From IMG/VR virus record IMGVR_UViG_3300035698_021011, positions 1 to 46,257 of that record: a DNA stretch of 46,257 nucleotides. One strand, given 5' to 3'. The notes under the pieces were generated by a model. It worked only from the letters and a program-made list of their open reading frames with translations, made no database searches and was not told the DNA's origin. This document shows positions 580-29,072 of this stretch, piece after piece (positions within the stretch are counted from its first letter, which is position 1; every line of letters begins with the position of its first letter). The translations under genes were made by a program, and so were the position numbers. The DNA is from a virus.

Positions 580-1599
580 TTACTCCTGTTTAACTAAATA
601 AATTCCTTCTTTCATTTGTTTATGAAAATCCGCTACATTACTAGTAAGTTTTTCATTAGACATATCATAATTAATATATCCTTGTTTTTTTATTACATTT
701 TCTATATTATCTTTTTGTAGTTCGTCCAACATTCCATCAGAACAATCTACTATAGAAGCATTTTTGTATGACTTAGAAATATTAAGTAGTTCTGCTTTAA
801 AAGATACGTTAGACATAGAACTTCTTACACCATTTACTGTTGTTATAGTTGTTTTTTTATCTTCTTCTGTAAGTGGCCCTAAACTTTCTAGTTCATATTT
901 TCCCTTATTTTGTGTCCAAGTTTCTGCAGCTCTTTTAGAATCATCCTTCCAACCAAGATCAACTCCAACAAGATATATTGGATTATATCCTAAGAATAAC
1001 GCTAATGTTAAAGCATTATTTGCTACACATCCAGTAAATCTTATACCTATTTTAATCCAAGGAAACATTAACGGAAATGTATTTTCAAAAAATTCATGTT
1101 GTGGAAATACGCGTCTATAATAATACTTATTCCACTTCCAAGCCTTTATCATTTTTGGTTCAGCATTAGGATGCGTCAATAGAGTAGAACCTTTCCAAGA
1201 GGTTGTTTTTTGATCTAATTTTAATTGTAAATTATATAAGCTCCATAAGGAATCAAAGGCACAAATATATTCTGGTTGGTGTTCATATTTCTTTAATGCA
1301 AAAGCTGTGGATGCAGATGAAAATATAGGATGTTGCCATTTATTTAATAGCGGTAAAGCTTTATTTAAACTTGGTCCCCTACCAGTAATTATACAAGGTC
1401 TACTCATTGGTCTTGGAATACTTGATATACACTTATTACTAGTTTTAAATTCTTCTTTTATTGTTGCATAATTCTCCATAGCATTTTGTATCCAAATAGG
1501 ATACCATCTACCAAAATAACCATCCTTCATAAACTCATCATGACGAGCCATTTTTTGCTGTGGTTTTTTTGGTGCTGTTTCTTTTACTTTTTCGCCCAC
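580..1599 (-). CDS. DUF115 / MptE-like (6-hydroxymethylpterin diphosphokinase-like fold) protein
   Basis: A 339-aa protein with the pattern of the DUF115/MptE-like family (PF01973): a glycine-rich nucleotide-binding strand CIITGRGPSLNKALPLL near residue 70, a second strand with IFSSASTAFALKKY, PEYICAFDS near residue 110, and NALTLALFLGYNPIYLVGVDLGW near residue 195. Members include archaeal MptE and the Maf proteins that glycosylate flagellin. In a phage it might modify a nucleotide or glycan, but the substrate is unknown. It starts with GTG behind AAGGAG and overlaps the upstream methyltransferase by 16 bp, suggesting a joint pathway. Confidence 0.7.
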   Translation of the reverse strand: MGEKVKETAPKKPQQKMARHDEFMKDGYFGRWYPIWIQNAMENYATIKEEFKTSNKCISSIPRPMSRPCIITGRGPSLNKALPLLNKWQHPIFSSASTAFALKKYEHQPEYICAFDSLWSLYNLQLKLDQKTTSWKGSTLLTHPNAEPKMIKAWKWNKYYYRRVFPQHEFFENTFPLMFPWIKIGIRFTGCVANNALTLALFLGYNPIYLVGVDLGWKDDSKRAAETWTQNKGKYELESLGPLTEEDKKTTITTVNGVRSSMSNVSFKAELLNISKSYKNASIVDCSDGMLDELQKDNIENVIKKQGYINYDMSNEKLTSNVADFHKQMKEGIYLVKQE

Positions 1600-2324
1600 T
1601 TTATCTCCTTTTCAAAACATAAACACATTACATCTCCAATATTGAAGAAAGCAAATATAGTGTTAATTATATTTTTAATTATATTTCTTGGTGCTGAAAA
1701 TCCACCATAAGTAAATTGTTCATATACTTTAAATCCATTTTGTTTAGCAATTTTAATAACAGTTTTTTTATCTGGTAACCATCTATGACTTTCGATTGCA
1801 TGTCTACTTTTAAAAAATTTTGGAATAAAACCACCATCATTAGGACAAGTAAGTATTAATTTACCATTACTTTTTAATAACTTTGCAGATTTAGAAAACA
1901 TTATAGTAGGATCTATCATGTGCTCTAAAACAAAAAAAGAATGAATATAATCAAACTTAACATCTATTTCAAAATTTTCATAATCTGTATTATAAACATT
2001 TACAGTATTTCCTGCCCAAGTGGTATTAAATTTATCAAATATTGATTTAATAGGTTCTATTCCATAACAACGTCTTCCATCACTATGTAATGCCATGCTA
2101 GTTAATAATCTTCCAGTTCCAAATCCTATATCCAATACGGTAGAAAAAGTACTAAAAATCATAGATCTTGAAACACCAAGCTTTGCAATATTTTTAAACA
2201 TTATCATAATATCATCATCATCTCTTTTTTCTCTATTTTCATCATAATATGATATATTTAGTTCCTCTGTATCTGTAGTATTAAATGGTAGCTGTGCTTT
2301 CATAAAAATTAAATCTTTTTTCAT
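1584..2324 (-). CDS. Class I SAM-dependent methyltransferase
   Basis: A 246-aa protein with the Rossmann methyltransferase motifs in order: motif I VLDIGFGTGRLL near residue 65, the acidic end of the second strand YGIEPIK, FDYIHSFFVLEHMIDP near residue 127 (motif IV), and LLKSNGKLILTCPNDGG (motif V/VI) near residue 150. The layout is that of UbiG/Methyltransf_23 small-molecule or glycan methylases rather than DNA methylases, because no DPPY-type motif is present. It overlaps the tubulin-like gene upstream by 4 bp and the DUF115 gene downstream by 16 bp, so it belongs to a tight operon. The substrate is unknown. Confidence 0.85.
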   Translation of the reverse strand: MKKDLIFMKAQLPFNTTDTEELNISYYDENREKRDDDDIMIMFKNIAKLGVSRSMIFSTFSTVLDIGFGTGRLLTSMALHSDGRRCYGIEPIKSIFDKFNTTWAGNTVNVYNTDYENFEIDVKFDYIHSFFVLEHMIDPTIMFSKSAKLLKSNGKLILTCPNDGGFIPKFFKSRHAIESHRWLPDKKTVIKIAKQNGFKVYEQFTYGGFSAPRNIIKNIINTIFAFFNIGDVMCLCFEKEIKWAKK

Positions 2325-3346
2325 ATATCTAATACCTTATTATCTGACTTATCGATAAACTTACTTCCCCTATAATCTTCTGCGTAAGCAGTAGCTTTTT
2401 TAACTGCAAGATCTCTTATCTTTTCTATTTTTTGTATGTACTTTTCTATATTCAATCCACTTGCTATTGTAATATATGCTCTATCTTTTATCTCTCCTTC
2501 TTTAGCATTAGAATAATTAACACTACCTCTTAATATTCCAGGTATCATTCTTGCATTAGATATTTTTGATGAAACTCTATCTACAACATTAGTAATAACA
2601 TTATGATATTTTGACATTTCTTCATCTTCAATATCAGTATCTACAAACATAGCTATTAAACAATTTTTAGTTTCCTTGTCTATCTTACCATATTCTAGTT
2701 TAGGCATTTTCTCTTCTATGAAGTCATTACTAAAATCAATAAAGCCTCCACCAAATACAACGCTGTCAAGTTCTGATTGATCAAGAGTTAATGGTGAATA
2801 TTGATCTGTTGAGAATTTATCTAATAAATTTACTATATAATCAACTCTTTTGATTATATAATCATTTATATCATTCCAGTTATTTTTAAATTCTTTTTTT
2901 AATTTTTCATTATCAAAAATTAGTACTGATATGTGCTGTATCAATGTCATTAAACTATTAATTGATTGTACTGAATTAGCTAGCGGAGGATTTATCTCTT
3001 TCTTAAATGGTAAAACTCCTACTATGAGAACTTTATTATTATTACTCAAAAGAATTCTTGATAATGGATTTAAACTAGAACTTCCACTACCTCCACCAAA
3101 GGAAGAGAATATTACCACTTTCTCATCCCTAACATCTTCAAAGATATCCTTTAATTTTGCTATATTATTTTCCCAAATTTTAACACCAGTTCTAAAACGT
3201 TTTGAAGCCCCTTCTTTTGAAAAGGAGTAAACTTCTTTATCTTCAAAATTTACAGTATCCTGATGAGCTGTAGAAATTAATATAGGATCTGTAGAAAACT
3301 TGGAAGCTAAAACCATTCCACAATTTCCTACACCTATAATTATCAT
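2321..3346 (-). CDS. Tubulin/FtsZ-superfamily GTPase (phage tubulin)
   Basis: The 341-aa product carries the tubulin/FtsZ hallmarks in order: an N-terminal nucleotide strand-turn GVGNCG (residues 5-10), the glycine-rich phosphate loop GGGSGSSS (84-91; consensus GGGTGSG), a VLPFKKE strand (residues 111-117; cf. the TxPF segment of FtsZ), a DNEKL helix start near 145 (PNDRL in FtsZ), and the catalytic T7 loop TLDQSE (187-192; NxDxxD/E in the family). Phage and plasmid relatives (PhuZ, TubZ) form filaments that centre the phage nucleus or segregate DNA. The length suits a GTPase core plus C-terminal domain, with a charged tail. It is translated with an 81-aa gene that ends directly at its ATG. 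Family assignment is by motif only. Confidence 0.8.
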   Translation of the reverse strand: MIIIGVGNCGMVLASKFSTDPILISTAHQDTVNFEDKEVYSFSKEGASKRFRTGVKIWENNIAKLKDIFEDVRDEKVVIFSSFGGGSGSSSLNPLSRILLSNNNKVLIVGVLPFKKEINPPLANSVQSINSLMTLIQHISVLIFDNEKLKKEFKNNWNDINDYIIKRVDYIVNLLDKFSTDQYSPLTLDQSELDSVVFGGGFIDFSNDFIEEKMPKLEYGKIDKETKNCLIAMFVDTDIEDEEMSKYHNVITNVVDRVSSKISNARMIPGILRGSVNYSNAKEGEIKDRAYITIASGLNIEKYIQKIEKIRDLAVKKATAYAEDYRGSKFIDKSDNKVLDI

Positions 3347-3592
3347 TTAATACCCCGCATCTTTCTTAATTCTTGTTAATTCGTTATTATATGAATCATA
3401 TACCATTTTAGCTCTTTTAGCAAGTGTCTTTTTCAAAATACTATTAATTTTTTCATTAACAGCTTCTAACTTTTCTGTTGTGTCGACGTCTTTATCTTCT
3501 ACATCCATTTGAAAAGAACAGTTAATATCTAAAGACTCATACTGCCTTCCTCCCATTTTAACTCCAACATTTCCACCCATAGTTACTAGCAT
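3347..3592 (-). CDS. Hypothetical protein, 81 aa, upstream of the tubulin gene
   Basis: A small protein with an N-terminal glycine-rich segment (MGGNVGVKMGGRQYESLDI), an acidic middle and a C-terminal helix rich in lysine. The ATG follows an AAGGAGA site at proper distance. Its stop codon directly abuts the ATG of the tubulin-like gene, which suggests translational coupling. It has no evident helix-turn-helix, so it does not look like TubR. Function unknown. Confidence 0.7.
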   Translation of the reverse strand: MLVTMGGNVGVKMGGRQYESLDINCSFQMDVEDKDVDTTEKLEAVNEKINSILKKTLAKRAKMVYDSYNNELTRIKKDAGY

Positions 3593-3865: not shown

Positions 3866-4202
3866 TTGGATATTCCATTAATTGATTCCAGTGAGTAACA
3901 CATAATGTTTTATTATTATCACTCCATACTTTTGTATCAACATTATATGCAACATTCCATTGAAATTTTGAAACGCCTAAACTGTTTATTTCTTTTACGA
4001 CACACCAATATCTACCAGTTTCTTCAGGTAGCTCAACATTTACATCTTTCCATTTAATTTTTTTATTATTTTCTTTAATTCGTTCTGATATAAGAGTACC
4101 AACTATATTTAAATTATTAGATGATTCTTTCATTAATTTGTCAATATTTCTTATTTCTAATCCTTTTAAAAATAATTCAAGTTTTTTTTCCCATTTGTTC
4201 AT
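3855..4202 (-). CDS. DUF551-like protein, 115 aa
   Basis: The C-terminal half reads WKDVNVELPEETGRYWCVV and ends CVTHWNQLMEYP. This matches the outline of DUF551 (WISVxDRLPE...VLV ... VTHWMPLPEPP), a domain common in phage and prophage proteins of unknown role. The N-terminal 45 residues are helical and lysine-rich. It overlaps both neighbours (4 and 11 bp), so it sits within one operon. Confidence 0.65.
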   Translation of the reverse strand: MNKWEKKLELFLKGLEIRNIDKLMKESSNNLNIVGTLISERIKENNKKIKWKDVNVELPEETGRYWCVVKEINSLGVSKFQWNVAYNVDTKVWSDNNKTLCVTHWNQLMEYPSEK

Positions 4203-4795
4203 ATAAATTTATCCTTTAAGATTCTAATTAAAATCTTTTTAATTTTTTCACTATTCATAATCATAATTCTTTTAGCTGCTATTTCACCTTCTGTCATTAT
4301 ACTATTTTTTATTTTATCATCAATATTATAGAAATCTTTTACTACAACAAATGCATCACAATTTATATTTCCTCTAACCATTTTAAACAAATTGTTTTTA
4401 TTTTTTAAAAAGCTGCTTATATCAAAGTTAACTGAAGTATTTTCTTTAGACCATTCTTCAATTAATCTTAATGTAGATACTACATTTTTTGTTAATATTT
4501 CTTCATTGTTTGTTTGGAATATGTGTTTATACTCTTCAAAAGTTTTAAATGCTTCATTAGAACATAGCTGAGTAGGAAATATCTTACCGTATTTCTCAAA
4601 TTGACAGGATACCCATATATATGAGTTCCAATCTTTTAAATAAGAATAATTATCTACTGTCTTTATAAAAAATGGCCACCATTTTGTTTTCTTTACATTT
4701 TTAATAGAGAATGTTTTAACAGAATACTTTCTATAAAATCCTAAGTAAGCTCTTGCTAAAATAAGAGCTTCGCTTTCAATATTAAAATTATCCAT
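4199..4795 (-). CDS. Hypothetical protein, 198 aa
   Basis: Not recognised. The protein is tryptophan-rich in its first half (KTKWWPFFIK, DWNSYIWVSCQFEKYG) and ends in a basic helix with isoleucine and lysine repeats. It has no signal peptide or transmembrane stretch. Its ATG lies within the last codons of the preceding gene, indicating coupled translation in the leftward operon that starts at 5020. Confidence 0.6.
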   Translation of the reverse strand: MDNFNIESEALILARAYLGFYRKYSVKTFSIKNVKKTKWWPFFIKTVDNYSYLKDWNSYIWVSCQFEKYGKIFPTQLCSNEAFKTFEEYKHIFQTNNEEILTKNVVSTLRLIEEWSKENTSVNFDISSFLKNKNNLFKMVRGNINCDAFVVVKDFYNIDDKIKNSIMTEGEIAAKRIMIMNSEKIKKILIRILKDKFI

Positions 4796-5064: not shown

Positions 5065-5601
5065 ATGAAGCTTCAAGAATTTATTGAAAATTTAAAGAAC
5101 TCAAAAAAAGAGATAACTGATATGCCAGCCCTTAACCCACAGAAACTTGGTACTTGTGCATTATGCGGAAAAAAATTTACTAATGAAAAAGACATAAAAT
5201 CAGATGTTAGTGGAAAATTATTTCATCAAGAATGTTTTGATAAAGCAACTGGTAATGATATATTAAAAATAAGAAGAACTGATAATCAGTTGCCAGAAGG
5301 TTTTGATTTTAAAGAATTTATCGCTAAGAAACAAGCCGAAAAAGCAAAAAAAGAAGGTAAAGAAGTAACTGATGAAAGTGAAAGCAAATCACCAAAGAAA
5401 AAGCTTTCAAAGAAAGAATGGGGCGCAAAGATGCAAGAGTTAAGAAACAAGGGAAACAAAGGTAAAAAGTCAAAAGATGATGACGAAGAAGAAAAAGAAA
5501 ATAAAGCTCCCAAGGAAAAACTTTCAAAGAAAGAATGGGGAGCTAGAATGCAAGAGTTAAGAAGCAAAAGTAAAAAAGGAAAAAAGAAAAAAAAGAAATA
5601 A
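5065..5601 (+). CDS. Lysine-rich zinc-finger protein with a T4 capsid-targeting-like N-terminus
   Basis: 178 residues from the ATG at 5065, chosen because CGGAGGA lies just upstream; a TTG at 5014 has no such site. The N-terminus MKLQEFIENLK resembles the T4 internal-protein targeting leader MKTYQEFIAEA. Next comes a possible zinc finger, CALCGKKF with HQEC (residues about 33-58). The C-terminal half is very basic and contains two copies of LSKKEWGAKMQELR (about residues 114 and 154) separated by an acidic linker, ending in a run of lysines. I infer a DNA-associated internal head protein. The next gene converges, with stop codons almost touching. Confidence 0.65.
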   Translation: MKLQEFIENLKNSKKEITDMPALNPQKLGTCALCGKKFTNEKDIKSDVSGKLFHQECFDKATGNDILKIRRTDNQLPEGFDFKEFIAKKQAEKAKKEGKEVTDESESKSPKKKLSKKEWGAKMQELRNKGNKGKKSKDDDEEEKENKAPKEKLSKKEWGARMQELRSKSKKGKKKKKK

Positions 5602-5602
5602 C

Positions 5603-5851
5603 TTATATCTGAGAAGTTGTTCTATTAACAGGTGTTCTAATATCTCTTCTGGTTCCAATACCAACTTTAGGCTGTGCCAATTTTGGCACGGCTGATTTTG
5701 TCATACGCGCTTTTAATTCTTGAATAGCCTTATCCTTATCTGCAATAATTTTATCTTTTTCAGCAAGATTAACTTCAAGAGCTTTAATCTGTCCTTTAAT
5801 TGCATCCATGTCTGTTGTTAATGCTTCATTTACTATATCATTAAAATTCAT
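5603..5851 (-). CDS. Small coiled-coil protein with head-targeting-like leader, 82 aa
   Basis: The product starts MNFNDIVNEALTTD, a leader with V-N-E followed by A, as in the other candidate head-packaged proteins here. A predicted coiled coil follows (repeated KDKIIADKDKAIQEL), then a basic, proline- and glycine-containing tail. An AGGAG site precedes the ATG. It ends the leftward gene group 7700-5603. Function unknown; internal virion protein inferred. Confidence 0.6.
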   Translation of the reverse strand: MNFNDIVNEALTTDMDAIKGQIKALEVNLAEKDKIIADKDKAIQELKARMTKSAVPKLAQPKVGIGTRRDIRTPVNRTTSQI

Positions 5852-5860
5852 ATTTATCTC

Positions 5861-6340
5861 CTAAATGTATTCTTCATCTTCAATATAACTATCGAAAACT
5901 GATTCTGTTTCATTTGTTATTTCTTCTGTAGTTGCTTTTCTTACGCCACCTGTTTGAATAACTCCATCTGTTACATCATCATCTATTGCTGGCTCAACTC
6001 TAACAAAAACTGGTTCTACTTTTATTGGCTCTATTATCTTTTCAGTAACTTGTTCTTCAGTTGTTACTTCTTTATTTGGAATTAATGATGGTTTAGATAC
6101 ACTAGCAGTTATACTTTCTACTTCTACTTTTTTTCTTGCTAGCGGAGAAATTGGTTTTATAGACGGAGTAGCAAATATTTTTTCTTGTTCATTTAACTCT
6201 GTAGTCATATTAAAATCTGAAATTTCTCTTACAGTTGTTTTACTATTACTGTTCCAACAATATACAAACTTATTTTCTACTAAATAAGGAGTTAATACTT
6301 CGCCATCTAATGTAGTTGTTTCTTTATTTAACCTGAACAT
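5861..6340 (-). CDS. Hypothetical protein, largely disordered, 159 aa
   Basis: The first 55 residues look like a small folded domain (FRLNKETTTLDGEVLTPYLV). The remainder is acidic and rich in V, E, T and P, typical of a disordered tail. It overlaps the upstream gene by 17 bp, with GGAAGT as the likely ribosome binding site. Its position among virion-type genes suggests a structural or assembly role, but no family is recognised. Confidence 0.55.
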   Translation of the reverse strand: MFRLNKETTTLDGEVLTPYLVENKFVYCWNSNSKTTVREISDFNMTTELNEQEKIFATPSIKPISPLARKKVEVESITASVSKPSLIPNKEVTTEEQVTEKIIEPIKVEPVFVRVEPAIDDDVTDGVIQTGGVRKATTEEITNETESVFDSYIEDEEYI

Positions 6341-7721: not shown

Positions 7722-10046
7722 TTATCCTATTTGCTTAGCCATCCTCTTAATTACATTCTCGCTAGTAGTCCATTCACTTTGTCCAAATAAAATACTATCA
7801 TCATTTTTATATACACTCATTAAAAATAATTTATCTATTTTTAATAAATCTTTTACATGCTTCCAATAAGAAGAAAACACTGGAACAGATTTTGTATTTT
7901 CATTTACATCTTCTATTAAAAGAAATGCCATTTCGTTTCCATTTTTATCATTAAAAGATCTTATGCTATTTATTGTAACTAATATTCTTTTAGATCTTTC
8001 TTTAACATCTTTAATATTGACATAAATAAGTTTCATCTTTTTTAATTTTTCTATGCTATTCAATATTTTTTCTGTAAATAAACTAGAGAATACTTTAACA
8101 CCAAAAAATTCTTTTTCATAACCAACTAAATCTTCTTCAGTTGTTTCTAATCCAGGAATAGATAAGGCTGCAGATTCGCAAGTATCATATATTGCTTTAA
8201 GTTTTTCTGATATTTTAATCGATTTCTTCTGAACCCAAAATGAAGTAAATGTATTTAAAAGTCTCTTTCTTTCTGTTGTAAAAGAATCAAATGCTCCAAT
8301 GCTAATTAATGATTGAATTACTTTACTTGTAACAGCTCTATTTCTAGTTCTAATCATAAAATCAAAGAAACTCTTAAATGAACCTTTTCCTTGTTCTTCC
8401 ATTATTATAGCTACTGCTTTATCTCCAACAAATTTAACATCATTCAATCCAAATCTAATTCCATCTTCATCTGGAGAAAAATGTAATTTAGATTTATTAA
8501 TGTCTGGTGGTAATATTGTCAATCCTTGTCTTCTAACTGAATTAATTTTACTTAATAAATCATCACCTTTTTGTGCTTCGTAACTTAATGTAGCTGAATA
8601 AAAGTATTTTCTAAAATAGAAAGATAAATATAATGTTATTAAAGCTATGTAAGAATAACTTGTTGCGTGGGAATTGGAAGCAATTATATTATTTACACAA
8701 ACAGTATGAAATGGACTTTTCATCTCAACATTATAAGTATCTTCTTTTCCTACCTTTTCTATTGAAAATATTTTAAATATTTTAACGGGCAACCCTTTTT
8801 CATTTTTTTTTCTTCTACCTAACTTATAATCTAATTTTTTATGGCAACTACTACAGCAAATAACAAGATTATCTATTTCATTATTTTTTCTATTACCATC
8901 TTTATGATGACATTCTAACCTGTTAGATTTTTTAGAACATATTTTACATATACCATTTGCTTCTTCTAAAAGAATCATTCTATTTTTTTTAAATTTTAAA
9001 AATTCCCCATCTATAAAACCAGAATTTTCCTCTCCACTTAAAAATCCCTCATTATTATATTTCTTAAATTCTCTAGTTTTAGATGTCTTATCTGTAAAAT
9101 TATATTTTATATCTTGTTTATATATATCTTTTATAAAAAGCTCATCTCCGCATTTTAATCCAGAGTCTATACTTAAATTTTTTTCTTTTGTTGGAAATTT
9201 ATGATTAGATGTTACTGTTATGTGCTCTCCAGTTTCTATTGTAATCTTATATACGTCTCTTTTTCCTTCATAGGTAATATCAACTATTTCATTCATTATA
9301 AGCTTGTCTTTATTTAACGAATAGGCAAATCCATATCCATTCTTATTATACTTTTTCCATAATGAATAATGTCCATTGTTTTTAGCCCAATTTCTATCAT
9401 TTTTTGTTAAAAACATTTCTTTAATAGTTGGTTCCCAGCGAGCTTTATTATCTCTATTTATTTTACAATTACCAGAAAAACATTTGTTAAAACTATAACC
9501 TGAAAATGCTTGTAAGTCTTGCGATATTTTAACTGCCATTTGTTCGTCAATGCCTAATTTTGTGGCTCCTTTAACAAACTTTTTTACAATTTTTTCCCAT
9601 TTCTTTAAATCTTCATCTGATTTGTCAGCCTTACCTAACTTCTTCATTAAGCCACGAACTGTATCAGCTTCCTCTAATGTAAATCCACCAATCTCATTAA
9701 ATGTTTTCATGATTTGTTCTTGATAAAGAAACGTATAATGGCTATCATCAAGTATTTTTTCTACTGATTCTGGATAAGGAGAAGTTCCTGATTTTTTTCT
9801 TTCTACATAAAAAGGAGCACAAGTTTCCAAAGGTCCTGGTCTAGCCATTGCGTTAATAGCTATTACTTCATCAAAATTCTCTGGTTTAACCTCTTCTACT
9901 AATCTTTTTGCAGTATTTCCATTTAATTGAAATATTCCAATACTATTATCATTATTAACTTCTTTATAAAGATTCTTATCATTCTCAGCTATAGTATAAA
10001 GCCAATTAGTTAAATCATCCTTATTTACTTCTTTTATAATTTTCAC
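7722..10046 (-). CDS. dnaE: DNA polymerase III alpha, C-terminal piece (fingers, OB fold) with intein
   Basis: 774-aa precursor. Residues 35-72 match the DnaE region IGIFQLNGNTAKRLVEEVKP ... MARPGPLE; FLYQEQIM (about 106) and FTLEEADTVR (about 122) are fingers motifs. At GYSFNK / SHATSYSYIA (188/459), a conserved DnaE site, a 270-residue intein interrupts the protein. An OB-fold region lies near residue 690 (RILVTINSIRSF). The piece lacks the PHP domain and all three catalytic aspartates, which lie in the genes at 12228-13478 and 11025-11900. It must therefore assemble with them to make an active polymerase. It starts with GTG directly after the stop of the sigma-like gene. Confidence 0.85.
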   Translation of the reverse strand: MKIIKEVNKDDLTNWLYTIAENDKNLYKEVNNDNSIGIFQLNGNTAKRLVEEVKPENFDEVIAINAMARPGPLETCAPFYVERKKSGTSPYPESVEKILDDSHYTFLYQEQIMKTFNEIGGFTLEEADTVRGLMKKLGKADKSDEDLKKWEKIVKKFVKGATKLGIDEQMAVKISQDLQAFSGYSFNKCFSGNCKINRDNKARWEPTIKEMFLTKNDRNWAKNNGHYSLWKKYNKNGYGFAYSLNKDKLIMNEIVDITYEGKRDVYKITIETGEHITVTSNHKFPTKEKNLSIDSGLKCGDELFIKDIYKQDIKYNFTDKTSKTREFKKYNNEGFLSGEENSGFIDGEFLKFKKNRMILLEEANGICKICSKKSNRLECHHKDGNRKNNEIDNLVICCSSCHKKLDYKLGRRKKNEKGLPVKIFKIFSIEKVGKEDTYNVEMKSPFHTVCVNNIIASNSHATSYSYIALITLYLSFYFRKYFYSATLSYEAQKGDDLLSKINSVRRQGLTILPPDINKSKLHFSPDEDGIRFGLNDVKFVGDKAVAIIMEEQGKGSFKSFFDFMIRTRNRAVTSKVIQSLISIGAFDSFTTERKRLLNTFTSFWVQKKSIKISEKLKAIYDTCESAALSIPGLETTEEDLVGYEKEFFGVKVFSSLFTEKILNSIEKLKKMKLIYVNIKDVKERSKRILVTINSIRSFNDKNGNEMAFLLIEDVNENTKSVPVFSSYWKHVKDLLKIDKLFLMSVYKNDDSILFGQSEWTTSENVIKRMAKQIG
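8673..9482 (-). mobile_element. Intein with HNH endonuclease domain inside DNA polymerase III alpha
   Basis: Residues 189-458 of the precursor. It begins C1-FSGNCKI (block A), has GEHITVTSNHKF (block B) and ends NNIIASN followed by Ser+1. An HNH homing endonuclease with zinc-type cysteines lies at about 367-405 (CKICSK, LECHHKDGNRKNN, CCSSCHKK). Boundaries are exact to the codon because both flanks continue the DnaE consensus. The residue before the terminal Asn is Ser instead of the usual His. Confidence 0.85.
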
Positions 10047-10448
10047 CTACGCCCCTTCAACTTTCTCCACATATTTATATGTAACATCATCGTCTTTGAA
10101 TACCTCAAAATCTACTAAGTCATATGGTAAAAACCTAGCTATTCTATTTCTATTATTCTCTTTTCTCAATATTTCTAATATTCTATAGGTTGAATTTTTC
10201 CATATAAAACTAAATACATTATTTGTTCCATCAACTTTTCCTTGATTAATTTTTTTTAAAAAGTTTTCGGCACATTCTTGTTTCATATCTTCTGCTCTAT
10301 CTAAATCTCTTATCTTAAAATTTCTTGATATAATAAAATCTGAAATTCTATAAACCTTATCGAATACATAATTCCAATCTTCTTTTTGAAACCTTTCCTT
10401 TAACTCTTCTTTGTTAATATCTAACAATCTATAAATCCTCCAAAACAT
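10047..10448 (-). CDS. Sigma-factor-like protein, T4 gp55 type (late sigma)
   Basis: About 133 residues. The central part DRAEDMKQECAENFLKKI, then NVFSFIWKNSTYRILEILRK, then ENNRNRIARFLPYD parallels sigma region 2. It closely follows the layout of T4 gp55 (WKQEMIADGIEASIKGL, then [21 protein letters not shown], then KKYSYF). gp55 directs host RNA polymerase to late promoters with only a TATAAATA -10 element. Here a TATAAATA occurs before the tail-tube gene. In-frame TTG at 10460 lies upstream of the expected transcription start, so ATG 10448 is preferred; neither has a good ribosome binding site. The gene sits between two polymerase pieces. Family call is by motif and moderately sure. Confidence 0.55.
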   Translation of the reverse strand: MFWRIYRLLDINKEELKERFQKEDWNYVFDKVYRISDFIISRNFKIRDLDRAEDMKQECAENFLKKINQGKVDGTNNVFSFIWKNSTYRILEILRKENNRNRIARFLPYDLVDFEVFKDDDVTYKYVEKVEGA

Positions 10449-10463
10449 ATTTTTAATCAAGTA

Positions 10464-10492
10464 AGTATATCTTATAGGTAATTGTTTGTCAA
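10464..10492 (-). promoter_or_regulatory. Host-type sigma70/sigmaA promoter
   Basis: Minus strand: TTGACA (10487-10492), 17-nt spacer, TATACT (10464-10469). It overlaps the stop codon of the upstream 64-aa gene. It drives the sigma-like gene and the polymerase piece after it. The leader to ATG 10448 would be about 9 nt, without a ribosome binding site. Confidence 0.7.
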
Positions 10493-10683
10493 ATCTGTGG
10501 AAATTTTATCTCCATTAAAAGAACAATATTTTTATAATTCTCTTGAATTTTTCCTAGATAAAAACCTATCATAGATGAATTTATATCTGTTTCTTTAATT
10601 AAATCTTCTAATTGATTTATAGAATTTTCCATAGTTATAAATTGTTCTACAACTCTTGCTTGTATTACTTCATTAGTAATCAT
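10489..10683 (-). CDS. Small helical hypothetical protein, 64 aa
   Basis: An all-helical small protein (VEQFITMENSINQLEDLIKE) preceded by a very strong AAGGAGG site, so probably well translated. It lies between the second and third polymerase pieces. No family recognised. Confidence 0.65.
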   Translation of the reverse strand: MITNEVIQARVVEQFITMENSINQLEDLIKETDINSSMIGFYLGKIQENYKNIVLLMEIKFPQI

Positions 10684-10692
10684 ACTACCTCC

Positions 10693-11025
10693 TTATATTT
10701 TAACAATTTGAAATTTTCTTTTGGCGTATCTTTTCTCTATAAATACAGAGTGCCTTCTATCTCCTTCACTAAAAATTATGTTTATATATTCAATTAAATA
10801 ATTTCCTTTATAATCTTTACTTTTTTCGTCCATAAATCTTAAAAATATTCTCATTTTTTTATAATTAGTTGTAGGAGAACTATAATAATAACCATTTCTT
10901 GTTTTAAATTTTTCTTTATTAATATTAATTCTATCATTAGCAACAAATATTAATCCAAGTTTAACTAACTTATCATTATATCTTCTATTTTGATCTGATG
11001 CTTTTAGTCTAAATGTATTATTCAT
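10693..11025 (-). CDS. Hypothetical protein, 110 aa
   Basis: A basic protein with YKKMRIFLRFMDEKSK and a C-terminal RRHSVFIEKRYAKRKF segment. Its ATG overlaps the stop of the catalytic polymerase piece (TAATG arrangement), so translation is coupled. The basic strand-rich C-terminus recalls that of the 115-aa protein at 11888-12235, but I cannot show homology. Function unknown. Confidence 0.6.
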   Translation of the reverse strand: MNNTFRLKASDQNRRYNDKLVKLGLIFVANDRININKEKFKTRNGYYYSSPTTNYKKMRIFLRFMDEKSKDYKGNYLIEYINIIFSEGDRRHSVFIEKRYAKRKFQIVKI

Positions 11026-11900
11026 TAGAATTTTCCTATCTCTTTGTTTACATAACTTTCAGGAACAATCTTTTGGATACCATCTTCTTCAATTAAAAAT
11101 AACTTTTCATCTATCATATCAATAGCTTCTTTTATTACATCTAAAATAGTTATTGCCAATATATCAAATTTTACTACACCTATTTCATCTAATACTTGTT
11201 CAGATCCACTTTCTGGAAATGCAGTTACTAATTCTTTATTAACTCTATCTACTGGAATTCTATCCCATACTGGTTCATCTAATATTACTATTCCACCTGC
11301 ATGTTTTCCACCTTGTCTTATTTTATTAATAAAGAACTTAGTTAAATCAAGAACATTTTTATGTGCTTCATAAAATTGATATTGATCTGGAGCATTCTCT
11401 TTTAAGTTATTTATGTTGTCATCCCAAGACATATTTGCATCTAATGCCTTAGTAAATTTATTAGATTTTTCAAAATCTACCTTGTATACTCTTAATAAAT
11501 CTTTAGCTGCTGCTTTAACACCTAATCTATTAAAAGTTCCTACATGCATAACTCTTTCTTTGCCATATTTTTCTATAAGATAATCTTGTATCTTTTGTTT
11601 TCCAGCAGGATTAAAATCAAGATCAATATCAACTCCACCAGAACTACCAGATTTTACAAATTTATATTCTGCTTCTTCATCTTGTACGAAGCTTGTCAAT
11701 CCCAATAATAAAGGTATTGTATATTTTGGAGATAATTTATCTTTGTTTATCATTAAATCTTCAGCAAGATTTATTCCATTATCATAATATCTTTTTGCAA
11801 ATATTAATTCTTTCTTATATTTCTTTTCTAATTCTGGATGCTCTTTTATTTTTTCATCACAAAATGTCTTTAATTTTCTAAATGTGTCTAAACATACCAT
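11025..11900 (-). CDS. dnaE: DNA polymerase III alpha, middle piece with the catalytic palm
   Basis: 291 aa. Residues 83-95 (KSGSSGGVDIDLDF) hold the paired catalytic aspartates equivalent to the PDFDVDF motif of DnaE. VMHVGTFNRLGVKAAAKDLLRVY follows the pattern of [20 protein letters not shown] in two short blocks. GKHAGGIVI and VVKFDILAITILDVI (third catalytic Asp) come later. The piece ends before the IFQL fingers motif, which is in the gene at 7722-10046. Residues 1-80 have no clear DnaE match. It probably forms the active site together with the other two products. Confidence 0.8.
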   Translation of the reverse strand: MVCLDTFRKLKTFCDEKIKEHPELEKKYKKELIFAKRYYDNGINLAEDLMINKDKLSPKYTIPLLLGLTSFVQDEEAEYKFVKSGSSGGVDIDLDFNPAGKQKIQDYLIEKYGKERVMHVGTFNRLGVKAAAKDLLRVYKVDFEKSNKFTKALDANMSWDDNINNLKENAPDQYQFYEAHKNVLDLTKFFINKIRQGGKHAGGIVILDEPVWDRIPVDRVNKELVTAFPESGSEQVLDEIGVVKFDILAITILDVIKEAIDMIDEKLFLIEEDGIQKIVPESYVNKEIGKF

Positions 11901-12235
11901 GTTGATAAACCTTCCTCAAAAGAACTTGAAAATTTGCGCCTTAATAAAACATTTTTAAAACTTACCGTTACTGTTGAATAATTTAGAAGAAATATCATAT
12001 TTTTATCACATGTGATATGAGAACTACCAACATAAAAATTAGAATTATTTATACATCTATGAAACATTCTAAATTTAAGAGCAAGTCTTTTATCATCTTT
12101 ATAATATTCTTCAAATTTTATAAACTTTACTTTAATATTACTTCTGTTATTATAACGAAAATATCTATAAATATGTAATAAAATATTATTTTTAAATTCA
12201 TTAAACTCTATTGTTTTTAAACTATTATCATTCAT
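11888..12235 (-). CDS. Hypothetical protein, 115 aa, between polymerase pieces
   Basis: Not recognised. It is rich in aromatic and basic residues (HIYRYFRYNNRSNIKVKFIKFEEYY) and strand-rich. It overlaps the end of the PHP piece by 8 bp and the start of the catalytic piece by 13 bp, so all three are translated together. Its place at the break in the polymerase suggests either an inserted gene or a protein that helps the pieces join. This is inference only. Confidence 0.6.
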   Translation of the reverse strand: MNDNSLKTIEFNEFKNNILLHIYRYFRYNNRSNIKVKFIKFEEYYKDDKRLALKFRMFHRCINNSNFYVGSSHITCDKNMIFLLNYSTVTVSFKNVLLRRKFSSSFEEGLSTWYV

Positions 12236-13478
12236 AATATTTTATTACCAAATCTGGACTTCTTGAATCGCTCATAAATCTCTCAAACAATAAATTTCTT
12301 TTTATTGGATCTAAATTATGAATCCCTAAAGCATAAGCTAACAAACTTCCACCAACGCTTCCTCTACCAAATCTTCCATAAATTTTCTCTCTTATAGAAA
12401 ATTGTGTAATATCTTCTACTATTAAAAAGTAAGAACTAAATCCTTTTCTTATTATAACTTCTAGTTCTCTTTCTAATCTCTTTCTATATTCAGCTGGAAC
12501 ATCTTTATAATTATCTACGTTGAACTTTTCCATTATTCCACGTTTTCCTTTTTTAATCAAATCTCCATCATCATTATCAGTTAGTGTAGGCAAATATATT
12601 TTGTTTCTTTCTGGAATAACAAAATTACATTTATCTGCTACTTTCATAGTATTATTACACCAATTTAATATATCACTCTCTTTATAATTATACCCAAACT
12701 CTTTATTAAAATCTATATAATCTTTTATATCATGATAATATAAATTTTTACTTTCGAGTTCAAATTTAAGATTATCTATAGTTGTTTTATCTCTTATTGC
12801 TATTGCTAATGTTTGTATTTGATTTTGACCTTTTTCTAAATAATGAACATCACCTGTAATTACAAGCATTATTCCCATTTTATTAGCCATTCTTATCATA
12901 AATTCATTTACAATTTTTTGTTCTGCTAATTCATTTAGCTGTATTTCTGTATAAAAGTCATCGCCAAATTGTACTGTCATCTCTTTATAAAGAGTTTCAG
13001 CTTCTTCTATTTTTCCGTCAAGAACTAGTCTACTTACTGGATTAGCAATACAAGCAGTTCCTATCATTAAACCTTCTTTATTCTTATAAAGTTCTTGTAA
13101 TGATATTCTTGGCGAATAATAAAAATGATCTGTATCTGACATGCTTAAATAGTTTAATTTAAGCAAATTTTTATATCCTATTTCATTCTTAACTAATAAT
13201 ACTAAATGATTATTTTTAGTTCTAACTCTTTTCCCTAAATCATTCATTGTAACTAATTTTTTAGTTACGTAAGCTTCTAAACCAAAAATAGGTTTAATCC
13301 CATGTTGAATACATTCAACTTGATGTTCGTACAAACCACTTATTCTTCCATGATCTGTAGAAGCTAATGCTTTATGACCATAATCAACTGCTTTTTTAGC
13401 ATATTCTCCAGAAGAACCTATTGCATCCAATCTAGACCCAATATGTTCGTGAAGATGAAGTTGGCAAAAGTTGCCCAT
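12228..13478 (-). CDS. dnaE: DNA polymerase III alpha, N-terminal piece (PHP domain and palm start)
   Basis: 416 aa. PHP motifs: CQLHLHEHIGSRLDAIG at the N-terminus, LASTDHGRISG (about 38), PIFGLEAYVT (about 62), TGDVHYL (about 209). The palm begins with GRFGRGSVGGSLLAYALG (about 367), then LDPIKRNLLFERFM. The homology then stops: after SRSPDL, where DnaE continues into DIDF, the frame reads VIKYYE and ends. An AAGGAG ribosome binding site precedes the ATG. The PHP metal ligands look largely intact, so it may supply proofreading, as no separate epsilon exonuclease is visible here. Confidence 0.85.
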   Translation of the reverse strand: MGNFCQLHLHEHIGSRLDAIGSSGEYAKKAVDYGHKALASTDHGRISGLYEHQVECIQHGIKPIFGLEAYVTKKLVTMNDLGKRVRTKNNHLVLLVKNEIGYKNLLKLNYLSMSDTDHFYYSPRISLQELYKNKEGLMIGTACIANPVSRLVLDGKIEEAETLYKEMTVQFGDDFYTEIQLNELAEQKIVNEFMIRMANKMGIMLVITGDVHYLEKGQNQIQTLAIAIRDKTTIDNLKFELESKNLYYHDIKDYIDFNKEFGYNYKESDILNWCNNTMKVADKCNFVIPERNKIYLPTLTDNDDGDLIKKGKRGIMEKFNVDNYKDVPAEYRKRLERELEVIIRKGFSSYFLIVEDITQFSIREKIYGRFGRGSVGGSLLAYALGIHNLDPIKRNLLFERFMSDSRSPDLVIKYYE

Positions 13479-20484: not shown

Positions 20485-20928
20485 CTATCCTATATTAACT
20501 TTAATTGTTTCTTTTTCTTTTGCTGGAATTTCAATAGATAAAAGACCATCTTTAAAAGTTGCCTTAGTACTCTTTCTATCATATTTAGCTACAGGAACAA
20601 CAAATCTATTTGTTGCTTTTCTATCAGCAATTCCTCTGTGCAAAAATTTAACTTTATCGTGTAAATCTTTTTTTGTTGGTTTGGTTGTTAGCAACATATA
20701 ATTATCTTCGAAAGATATCTCTATATTACTCATTTTGTAGCCAGCAAGTGCTACTGTGATATGCATGTTTTTGTTTTCATCTATATAAACATTAGATGGC
20801 GGAAAAGTACATGCAGGTTTAATATTAAACTCTGGACTTACGCTATTAAACATTTTCATCAAATCCGGTTCTGTTAATTTAAACAACTCTTCCAATACTT
20901 CAAACATATCTACATTCTCTTTACTCAT
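20485..20928 (-). CDS. Small heat-shock protein (Hsp20/alpha-crystallin)
   Basis: 147 aa from ATG 20928, chosen for the GGAGGT site 6 nt upstream; an upstream ATG at 20949 lacks one. The alpha-crystallin domain spans about residues 43-140: PPSNVYIDENKNMHITVALAGY, then EDNYMLLTT, FLHRGIADRKATNRFVVP and the typical end FKDGLLSIEIPAKE. It holds unfolded proteins in solution. Phage Hsp20 genes are known in T4-like cyanophages. It has its own consensus promoter, a structured leader and its own terminator, so it is a single-gene unit. Confidence 0.9.
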   Translation of the reverse strand: MSKENVDMFEVLEELFKLTEPDLMKMFNSVSPEFNIKPACTFPPSNVYIDENKNMHITVALAGYKMSNIEISFEDNYMLLTTKPTKKDLHDKVKFLHRGIADRKATNRFVVPVAKYDRKSTKATFKDGLLSIEIPAKEKETIKVNIG

Positions 20929-20946
20929 AATAATACCTCCTATGAG
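20924..20946 (-). promoter_or_regulatory. Possible RNA-thermometer-like hairpin over the hsp20 start
   Basis: In the mRNA, CUCAUA pairs with UAUGAG, where the second arm contains the AUG start. The GGAGG ribosome binding site lies in the 11-nt loop. The 6-bp AU-rich stem is weak, which would suit melting near growth temperature. No experiment supports this. Confidence 0.35.
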
Positions 20947-20996
20947 CATATTAGTTTTTTTAAGTCCCGCATACGCAGCGACTTTTTCTTAATTTA

Positions 20997-26570: not shown

Positions 26571-26918
26571 TTAATTCATTTTTAAAATTTTGTTTGGTGG
26601 CTTTGGTTCAGATACATACGTAGCCATAATACTAGTATATTTACAAAGACCATATCTTTCACTTTCTTCATCACCTTGAATCATCTTCATATCATATTGA
26701 TTAAAGAAAACTTTATCATCTTCTTCAAACTGAATAGATTCTTTTGGTACATCTGGTCCTATACTTAATATAGTTGCATAATGCATTTCTTTTGCTGGTG
26801 TTCCAGGCGGGTCGTCTTCACCCAATAAAACCAATCCACCTTTAGAAATTTTTTCTAACGGCATATCAATTTTATGAAACCTAATTACTACATACTCTCC
26901 CATTGGTACTACTTTCAT
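26571..26918 (-). CDS. GroES-type co-chaperonin (functional analogue of T4 gp31)
   Basis: 115 aa matching the GroES/Cpn10 plan: MKVVPMGEYVVIRF, mobile-loop segment KISKGGLVLLGEDD (about 25-38), YATILSIGPDVP, EDDKVFFNQYDMKMI and a C-terminal CKYTSIMATYV. It would cap host GroEL to fold phage proteins, as gp31 does for the T4 capsid protein. The sequence is closer to a normal GroES than to the divergent gp31. It lies between uvsX and the helicase with touching ends, so it is co-expressed with replication genes. Confidence 0.88.
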   Translation of the reverse strand: MKVVPMGEYVVIRFHKIDMPLEKISKGGLVLLGEDDPPGTPAKEMHYATILSIGPDVPKESIQFEEDDKVFFNQYDMKMIQGDEESERYGLCKYTSIMATYVSEPKPPNKILKMN

Positions 26919-29072
26919 TTATTCCTCCACATCCTTTATCATTTCTTGTAACATAATTGAATTATCTTCTGTATCCATGCTAATTTCGTCATCAATTTCA
27001 TCAGGTTCAATATCACCACTAACCAATGCGGCTCGTTTTTCTTCTAATATTTCCTCTTCTCTTACATTCAATATCTCTTGTAATTTATCTACGTTGTCAG
27101 ATTCATTTTCCTTAAATCTATTAACAAAATCCTTTCTATAAAAAGATTTATCATCAAACATTCCTTTTATTGTATATCTTGTTCCAGATTTTGTCATTAC
27201 TCCAAAATCTCTACAAATATCGAACAGTCCAGAAAACCTTGACGGTCCAACTGCAAAATCAATTAAAAAACTACATCTTCTCATTTCAGTTCCAAATCGA
27301 GATTTTTTAACTAAAGCTTTTACAGCTTTAACCGAACTTCCTAACGCAGTTTTTCTTCTATCTTTTTCTGCTGTCATTTCCTTATCAGTCATTGTATCAG
27401 ATACTTCTGCAGTATCAGTAAGTCTTAAATATAATGAAGGATTATATAATACATTAACTCCACCAGATTCTTTAATAGGATGATATATATCACCTATGTT
27501 TGTATATACTTTATTTGAAAACAAAAACGTACTATTTGTTTTTTCAAATGTTATATCAAACGTTCTAAAAAACCTAGCAATATCTTGTCCTTTCTTTCCC
27601 ATTTCTGCAATTCCTTGCAATTCTCTTATGGTTTGCAAGTTAGCCATAGAATCTAATAGTATTAAAATATTCTTTTCTATTTTATTAAAGATAATAGAAT
27701 TTACTATCTTTTTAACCATTCTTGTTGCACCTTCAACATATAAAAAATCTTTTGTATCTTTAGTTTTTGGAAACTTTCCATCTGGAACTTCTTTTATTTC
27801 AGAGTTCTTTTTAGATATTTTATAATTATCAAAAGTATGAGCTTTAAGCATTCTTACCTTACTCGTATCAACTCCTGCAAAATCTAATAGTTCTTTTCCA
27901 GAGCCTCCACCTTCTGTTTCAATTATAATAATATAATCTACTTGTGGATCATTCATTACAGTAGCTAATAATAAACTCTTTCCAGTATTATGAACTATAA
28001 AATCATTTGCTATAAAATTGCTAAATGGTTCATTCATTCTTATATCATAAGTATGTTTTACTCCAACTGATTGTATTGAAACAATTTTACTATATTCATA
28101 CTCGTTATGACCAAAACCTCTAAATCCTTTTTTACTAGAATGAAATGAATCATGATCTTTTTTAGTGAATACTTTTAAATTATCAATAGAATCATCAGTT
28201 ATGTCCTCATTTTTATGGTGAACTATTAAATCACTAGAAATAAATTTTAACGTCTTAGATTTTTCTTTATCATATTTTACTATGTTTATAAAATCAGATA
28301 TACTTAAATTATTCATTTTTGCTTCTATAACTAATCTTGAAAAATAAATTCTCTTATATAAATATTTTCCTGTTTTTTTATTCCAAGCAAATGGATGATA
28401 ATTTACTCCATTTATTTCTCTTCTTTTATTTTTTCTTCCGCCAAGATTAACTTTTGATGATGCTTCTTTTTTTAGCATAACCACTTCACCAACATTCAAT
28501 TTATTAAGTGGAACAAAATTATCCTTTTCTGCAACTCCTCTATCGTTAATATTTTTATCTGGAACTTTAAATGGATGTTCTGCGGAAACAATTATAGATT
28601 TTCCATTTTCTACCTTTAATTCAAAACATTCTTTTTCTCCAGAATCTATTACATCTAAAATTTCATTATATCCTATGTAATCATCTTTTAATGAAAATGT
28701 TTTTGTAGGAGAATTGTTCCAAAATTTTTCCCCTATATTTTTTGGTTCTAATTTATGAAATTTTCTATATAACTCTTTTATAGAATATTCTCTATAACTT
28801 GTTCGTTTTCCTCTATTGATTTTAATTATTGTATCATCACATAAACATCCACTAAGTCCATCTACACAACTAACTCTTCCTACCGGAATGCAACCTCTTA
28901 AATTTTTTGCTCCTATATAATTAAGAGAATATACACCTATATCTAACCAATTTTTTACACCCATATCTACTTTTGAAAAATCAATAATATCTTCAAATTG
29001 TGATGAGATAATAGAATCTATATCTTCAAAAGATGTTTTTTCTTTTACTTTTATCGGCAATTCTTTCTCCAT
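26919..29072 (-). CDS. uvsX: UvsX/RecA-type recombinase precursor with intein
   Basis: 717-aa precursor, 430 aa after splicing. The RecA-like core shows Walker A split by the intein (CVDGLSG at 69-75 and TGKSLLLATV from 363), the catalytic-glutamate strand IIIIETEGGGSG, Walker B NILILLDSMANLQT, the L2-side TFLFSNKVYTNIGDIYHP, and an acidic C-terminal tail. It makes filaments on single-stranded DNA and drives strand exchange. With gp32-like SSB, SbcCD and UvsW it makes up a T4-style recombination system. Without splicing the ATP site would be destroyed. A hairpin terminator separates it from the SSB gene upstream. Confidence 0.92.
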   Translation of the reverse strand: MEKELPIKVKEKTSFEDIDSIISSQFEDIIDFSKVDMGVKNWLDIGVYSLNYIGAKNLRGCIPVGRVSCVDGLSGCLCDDTIIKINRGKRTSYREYSIKELYRKFHKLEPKNIGEKFWNNSPTKTFSLKDDYIGYNEILDVIDSGEKECFELKVENGKSIIVSAEHPFKVPDKNINDRGVAEKDNFVPLNKLNVGEVVMLKKEASSKVNLGGRKNKRREINGVNYHPFAWNKKTGKYLYKRIYFSRLVIEAKMNNLSISDFINIVKYDKEKSKTLKFISSDLIVHHKNEDITDDSIDNLKVFTKKDHDSFHSSKKGFRGFGHNEYEYSKIVSIQSVGVKHTYDIRMNEPFSNFIANDFIVHNTGKSLLLATVMNDPQVDYIIIIETEGGGSGKELLDFAGVDTSKVRMLKAHTFDNYKISKKNSEIKEVPDGKFPKTKDTKDFLYVEGATRMVKKIVNSIIFNKIEKNILILLDSMANLQTIRELQGIAEMGKKGQDIARFFRTFDITFEKTNSTFLFSNKVYTNIGDIYHPIKESGGVNVLYNPSLYLRLTDTAEVSDTMTDKEMTAEKDRRKTALGSSVKAVKALVKKSRFGTEMRRCSFLIDFAVGPSRFSGLFDICRDFGVMTKSGTRYTIKGMFDDKSFYRKDFVNRFKENESDNVDKLQEILNVREEEILEEKRAALVSGDIEPDEIDDEISMDTEDNSIMLQEMIKDVEE
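27987..28847 (-). mobile_element. Intein with HNH endonuclease domain inside the UvsX Walker A motif
   Basis: Residues 76-362 (287 aa). Block A is C-LCDDTIIKINRG, block B is IIVSAEHPF and the end is FSNFIANDFIVHN, with Thr+1 as the splice nucleophile. An HNH domain is visible at IVHHKNEDITDDSIDNLKVF (about 283). The insertion splits GLSG / TGKS, so excision restores the P-loop. Codon positions of both junctions were checked. Confidence 0.9.

Follow-up and report, generated by a model that had tools for sequence, protein, structure and literature searches.

A candidate third lineage of phage tubulins: a tubulin/FtsZ-like GTPase in the replication block of T4-like phages

We have identified a gene for a tubulin/FtsZ-like GTPase of 341 aa at 2321-3346 (minus strand) of the window, the whole stretch of 46,257 nucleotides analysed here, which is a complete, linear IMG/VR record and represents a genome fragment. 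The ORF starts with ATG immediately after the stop codon of an 81-aa gene (3347-3592, minus). The nucleotide loop GVGNCG occupies residues 5-10 (3317-3334, minus), the tubulin signature or T4 loop GGGSGSSS residues 84-91 (3074-3097, minus) and the catalytic T7 loop TLDQSE, which aligns with the DxSE of CetZ and TubZ, residues 187-192 (2771-2788, minus). A long last helix is followed by the C-terminal tip K-x-LDI (residues 337-341; 2324-2338, minus). The first-pass annotation had called a phage-encoded tubulin/FtsZ-like GTPase with these coordinates and these three loops, and both the call and the positions hold.

PF00091 (Tubulin/FtsZ GTPase) is the sole Pfam family in the protein, scoring 44.9 bits (E=2.2e-11; cut-off 33), which rules out a chance motif match; 2321-3346 is a genuine tubulin/FtsZ-family gene. 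The same domain exceeds its cut-off in all members of the family described below (the window protein, six relatives and L192). Against PDB, phmmer with the window protein retrieved CetZ, FtsZ and TubZ chains (E 5e-5 to 7e-3), and a profile built from the six relatives retrieved CetZ, TubZ and FtsZ chains at E=1.8e-7 to 4e-6. The match to PHROG 4733 (tubulin PhuZ) is partial and weak (E 1.8e-4 to 7e-6, compared with 5e-118 for phiKZ PhuZ). No match of the window protein to the FtsZ equivalog TIGR00065 was found, and one relative scored 19 bits against a cut-off of 295. PF22334 (TubZ_C_2, the PhuZ C-terminal domain) is absent from the family proteins and from the records of five relatives, with a phiKZ control at 6e-39. 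An FtsZ-type disordered linker and full C-terminal peptide are likewise absent, the protein ending about 18 residues past the last helix in K-x-LDI.

The AlphaFold2 model, computed from six sequences, has a mean pLDDT of 61 and a pTM of 0.57, with a good GTPase domain (pLDDT 82-91 over residues 1-110) and a poor C-terminal half (block means 26-51 over residues 171-300). Foldseek matched it to CetZ 3zid, many FtsZs, phiKZ PhuZ 3zbq, PhuZ 3r4v and Bacillus TubZ, and among viral structure models to other phage FtsZ/tubulin proteins at 12-18% identity. The predicted GTPase domain is thus of the CetZ/FtsZ/PhuZ kind. The last helix is predicted at residues 300-323, followed by the short tail that ends in K-x-LDI.

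The window protein and seven relatives, 55-72% identical and all from metagenomic phage contigs, make up a family of eight. Six relatives came from IMG/VR scans with the GTPase itself (55-72%) and the seventh, L192 (56%), from a separate scan with the C-terminal part of the DNA polymerase III (Pol III) alpha subunit. Known members are confined to contigs of T4-like phages: tblastn with the protein found none in INPHARED (50,697 phage records) or among PLSDB plasmids, and a genome collection of 84,980 species held no family member, records very near the window having possibly been excluded from these searches. The checked nucleotide-contact residues (G5, G7, N8, G10, G84-G86, G88 and N146), the T7 acids D189 and E192 and the tip K-x-LDI are invariant in all eight proteins, as is the stretch GGGSGSS of the signature. 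Invariant residues are enriched in T4 (p=4e-4) and in T7/H8 (p=5e-4); no enrichment was seen in the C-terminal domain or in H11 as a whole. For the seven members found first, dS ranges over 1.3-2.7 and dN over 0.1-0.4 (Nei-Gojobori with Jukes-Cantor). The resulting dN/dS of about 0.07-0.3 is only a rough value because synonymous sites are near saturation, but amino-acid change in the family is clearly constrained.

The signature loop had been put forward as a diverged glycine loop that would set the protein apart. Comparison with eight PhuZs does not bear this out: phiPA3 has GGGSGST, BONAISHI GGGSGSV and phiKZ GGASGST. GGGSGS is common among PhuZ and GGGSGSS is a loop of the PhuZ type, so the main sequence argument of the first-pass annotation falls, and we dropped the loop as an unusual feature.

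For the phylogenetic placement, the comparison set comprised eight PhuZs, E. coli FtsZ, haloarchaeal FtsZ1, FtsZ2 and CetZs, three plasmid TubZs, phage G gp138 and one tubulin encoded on a 316-kb contig. Members of the family form a single clade with support of 98/93 in a first tree and 100/100 in a second, which includes L192. It lies outside the PhuZ clade (100/100) and outside the CetZ clade (99/99 and 100/99 in the two trees); FtsZ is strongly supported without the new proteins, and the TubZ group is itself weakly supported. In these trees the family is a new clade of phage tubulins, apart from PhuZ, TubZ, FtsZ and CetZ. Its distance from PhuZ, anticipated from the first reading, is borne out by this position and by the missing PF22334 match. 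The nearest neighbour shifts between the two trees, from the PhuZ side (80/86) to CetZ (89/87), with long branches in play, and topology tests rejected neither a sister relationship with PhuZ (p=0.28) nor a clade with TubZ (p=0.30 and 0.36); a pairing with CetZ was likewise neither demonstrated nor rejected. We therefore dropped any fixed placement beside PhuZ, TubZ, CetZ or FtsZ, as unstable between the trees. The best family-profile scores per group were 39 bits for TubZ, 35 for CetZ, 30 for phage G, 15 for PhuZ and 13.5 for FtsZ; the top-scoring outside protein was the TubZ of a Planococcus plasmid. In a profile comparison with phiKZ PhuZ alone, only the T4-T5 region aligned.

The tubulin of the 316-kb contig (L231, IMGVR_UViG_3300025133_009608) is an unusual giant-phage fusion outside the new clade. 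Its ORF (886-3309, minus; 807 aa) joins a group-1 glycosyltransferase domain at about residues 200-298 to a tubulin/FtsZ GTPase domain at 418-583 with the loop GGGGTGSSS.

What does distinguish the gene is its setting, that of a T4-like phage, as had been proposed from the T4-type replication genes and Pol III. The window encodes UvsX (with an intein), a UvsW-like helicase, a gp32-like SSB, SbcC/SbcD, endonuclease VII, thymidylate synthase, a gp19-like tail tube, a baseplate hub and a tape measure, together with Pol III alpha. Two gp23-type capsid genes are present in a relative of 201 kb, and the cultured phages that match its capsid best, T4-like cyanophages and others, do so at no more than about 25% identity. 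Signs of a phage nucleus were sought in the relatives, all of them fragments. The PHROG model of chimallin, the nucleus shell protein, gave no match in the records of six relatives, including the 201-kb one (no control matched it either), and chimallin PF25677 gave none in the three largest relatives' records, with a matching phiKZ control. RNA polymerase beta' was not found in the fragmentary records searched, its phiKZ control being weak and below the cut-off. No tyrosine integrase was found in the seven records tested, all fragments, which fits a lytic life. The window has no Rfam match and no tRNA, so its RNA gives no clue to the host, and promoter-like sites are no more frequent than in shuffled sequence, so that the timing of expression cannot be read from them.

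Pol III alpha is divided among separate ORFs within 7722-13478 (minus), namely 12228-13478, 11025-11900 and 7722-10046, of which 7722-10046 contains an HNH intein. Most relatives show this division too, while G004 has the first two parts joined in a single ORF. Rfam revealed no intron, so the parts may work as separate polypeptides. The UvsX-like recombinase (26919-29072, minus) contains an intein with an HNH endonuclease, and its matches in G001, G003 and G004 are shorter and apparently intein-free. An Hsp20-type chaperone (20485-20949, minus) and a GroES-like/head-morphogenesis gene (26571-26918, minus) were also found. A 697-aa protein (35254-37347, plus) with a weak DHH phosphoesterase match is kept in relatives near tail genes.

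The GTPase gene belongs to a conserved replication block anchored by the C-terminal part of Pol III alpha (7722-10046, minus). In carriers, this part is followed by small genes (including a D12 methyltransferase in four), by a 198-aa gene (4199-4795, minus, in the window), then by a 5'-3' exonuclease (5/8), the 81-aa gene (6/8, so that its linkage is not strict) and the GTPase. After the GTPase comes either a gene for an 80-97-aa protein with a DnaG-type primase, or an MptE/PseD-like gene with sugar genes. The 198-aa gene is present in all eight carriers and in two phages without the GTPase (L160 and L161). In the window, 580-2324 (minus), downstream of the GTPase, encodes a SAM methyltransferase and an MptE/PseD-like protein; at this place L001 and L004 carry long operons of sugar-nucleotide genes (epimerases, kinase, nucleotidyltransferase and aminotransferase). 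In L004 an HNH-homing-endonuclease-like gene (5252-6004) sits exactly at the junction of the 81-aa-type gene and the GTPase.

Independent sampling with Pol III alpha recovered seven close contigs that extend to the site (39-63% in Pol III); apart from L160, all of them carry the GTPase, always downstream of the 198-aa gene. L152, L154 and L156 stop too close to Pol III for the presence of the GTPase to be judged, and it is absent from the short records of L159, L161 and L162. The 71-kb contig L160 shows, in this order, Pol III, the 198-aa gene, the exonuclease (12194-13174), the 97-aa-type gene (13186-13410), a primase and a helicase, with no GTPase between them or anywhere else in the record. 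The view that every related phage has the GTPase was accordingly rejected as an artefact of searching with the GTPase itself. By this comparison the gene is dispensable in the wider phage group, since L160 retains the block in its absence. A weakly supported branch of the Pol III tree (62/76) has all eight carriers on one side, and that tree also contains the two starred branches found in the GTPase tree. This pattern is consistent with one gain of the GTPase followed by vertical descent; under another rooting of the Pol III tree, loss may have occurred instead.

In the tubulin superfamily, GTP lies at the interface of two subunits, and each subunit triggers hydrolysis in its neighbour through its T7 loop (see also PMC3678025 and PMC7950403). 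Head-to-tail stacking, in which this loop completes the active site of the adjacent subunit, predicts an intact T7 loop, and the conservation of both the nucleotide and the T7 faces argues for polymerisation. Filament competence is well supported by the sequences, and the protein can probably form filaments. PhuZ and TubZ, the two studied phage tubulins, each transport cargo that contains DNA (PMC7950403, PMC3678025). TubZ partitions DNA. The filaments of PhuZ centre the nucleus, rotate it and transport capsids, yet PhuZ is not essential and is missing from a third of Chimalliviridae (PMC10299810, PMC12908238).

We give an even chance to the reading that the new family is a third phage-tubulin lineage beside PhuZ and TubZ, a GTP-binding filament former that would move replicating DNA in lytic growth without a nucleus. 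During lytic infection, GTP-driven dynamic filaments would form and act directly, with no protein nucleus, on the replicating phage DNA or the replication factory, by pushing, centring or separating it. The location of the gene suggests a role in DNA positioning; direct positioning or separation of DNA would be the most likely task, given the replication-block site and given that neither lysogeny genes nor signs of a nucleus were detected. Contact between subunits or the binding of cargo may be the task of the long C-terminal helix and the invariant K-x-LDI tip, as it is for the C-terminal tails in PhuZ and TubZ. In phiKZ, c-st and Bacillus TubZs the last helix H11 has been described as flexible and as tailing into a coil (PMC3678025). 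More tentatively, T4-like phages without a nucleus might place naked replication factories by means of dynamic tubulin filaments of their own, which would constitute a third functional class of phage cytoskeleton.

Two other tasks appear improbable, and about equally so. The first is partition of the TubZ type, in which the GTPase would segregate a plasmid-like prophage, as in phage c-st, with a centromere and the 81-aa product as DNA-binding adaptor. The Planococcus TubZ is the best outside protein for the family profile (39 bits), a clade with TubZ is not rejected (p=0.36), and the small gene upstream in six of eight phages recalls the small gene that precedes plasmid TubZ. However, the 81-aa protein is modelled, with moderate confidence (pLDDT 72), as a hairpin and a long helix and not as a winged helix-turn-helix; a structure search with this model gave no significant match. 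Two carriers lack the 81-aa gene and one non-carrier has it elsewhere, and because each gene occurs without the other we rejected the 81-aa neighbour as a fixed partner, that is, as a dedicated TubR. No iteron array of a centromere (tubC) was found within 5-8 kb around the gene at five loci, where repeats were only scattered, A-rich or part of coding sequence; the lack of an integrase match in the records tested and the T4-like genome type also speak against a plasmid-like prophage.

The second is virion logistics, with filaments that would carry or arrange capsids and virions instead of DNA. PhuZ filaments bring capsids to the nucleus by treadmilling (PMC12908238, PMC13282480), and the phages concerned are large, as the 201-kb relative with its two capsid genes illustrates. 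Nevertheless, the capsid target in PhuZ phages is the nucleus shell, not found here, and the GTPase lies among replication genes and not head genes. Slightly less likely still is a takeover of the host, in which co-assembly with the FtsZ ring or competition for FtsZ partners would block division: the protein is FtsZ-like and its invariant final LDI is similar to the residues with which the FtsZ C-terminal peptide begins (E. coli ...YLDIPAFLRKQAD), but three common residues are weak evidence, the binding part PAFLR of that peptide is missing, the family retains its own full GTPase and T7 loop, and co-assembly is unlikely because the protein is far from FtsZ (only 9 bits for E. coli FtsZ with the family profile).

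Reviews place phage tubulins in two subgroups, PhuZ and TubZ (PMC7950403, PMC3678025), a survey of 224 jumbo phages noted two distinct FtsZ/tubulin representatives (PMC7824862), and tubulin homologues from metagenomic phages of huge size were recorded as PhuZ and not sorted further (PMC7162821). No earlier description of the clade was found in the literature covered, which was mostly open-access, with few subscription papers and preprints. The studied phage tubulins accompany nucleus-forming jumbo phages (PhuZ) or plasmid-like prophages (TubZ). What we describe is, to judge from the family, more than a single odd gene: it is a clade of phage tubulins in T4-like phages. A conserved tubulin in such phages without a detectable nucleus would separate the 'spindle' from the 'nucleus', and one replication block with and without the GTPase gene offers a natural comparison. 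It would become testable whether phage tubulins serve DNA positioning by themselves, their recruitment to nuclei having taken place in a single lineage. If T4-like phages do place naked replication factories with filaments of their own, phage spindles would not be bound to nucleus formation, and T4-type infection would have a cytoskeletal organisation in some lineages.

Among known systems, PhuZ of Chimalliviridae (phiKZ gp39, 201phi2-1 gp59) is similar as a phage tubulin of 315-344 aa, compared with 338-342 aa in the new family, usually without an N-terminal extension, with a GGGSGS-type T4 loop, acidic T7 residues and a long last helix with a short tail. It differs in the DxxD form of T7, which is DxSE in the new family, and in its setting, since the new family occurs in T4-like phages with Pol III alpha, and the 201-kb relative yielded neither chimallin nor RNA polymerase beta'. 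TubZ of Bacillus-type plasmids and phage c-st, with the TubZ-like gp138 of phage G, shares the DxSE of T7, a last helix with a tail, the best outside profile score (39 bits) and a small gene upstream in most new-family members. TubZ proteins are, however, of 435-446 aa (341 here), the new proteins lie outside the TubZ group in both trees, the upstream protein is not predicted as a winged helix and iterons were not found nearby. Archaeal CetZ has a similar GTPase domain, a DxSE T7 and best scores of about 34-35 bits, and Methanosaeta CetZ 3zid also has Ser-Ser after its signature (GGTGSS); CetZs nevertheless form a separate clade of archaeal cellular cell-shape proteins, sister to the new clade in one of the two trees only. 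FtsZ, of bacterial and archaeal division, shares the superfamily fold and the catalytic motifs, whereas the new family is far below the equivalog cut-off and has neither the linker nor the full C-terminal peptide. The viral models of phage FtsZ/tubulin proteins A0A6J5RW92, A0A8S5UFG9 and A0A8S5USZ9, from uncultured phages, have the same fold and are only 14-16% identical over the model.
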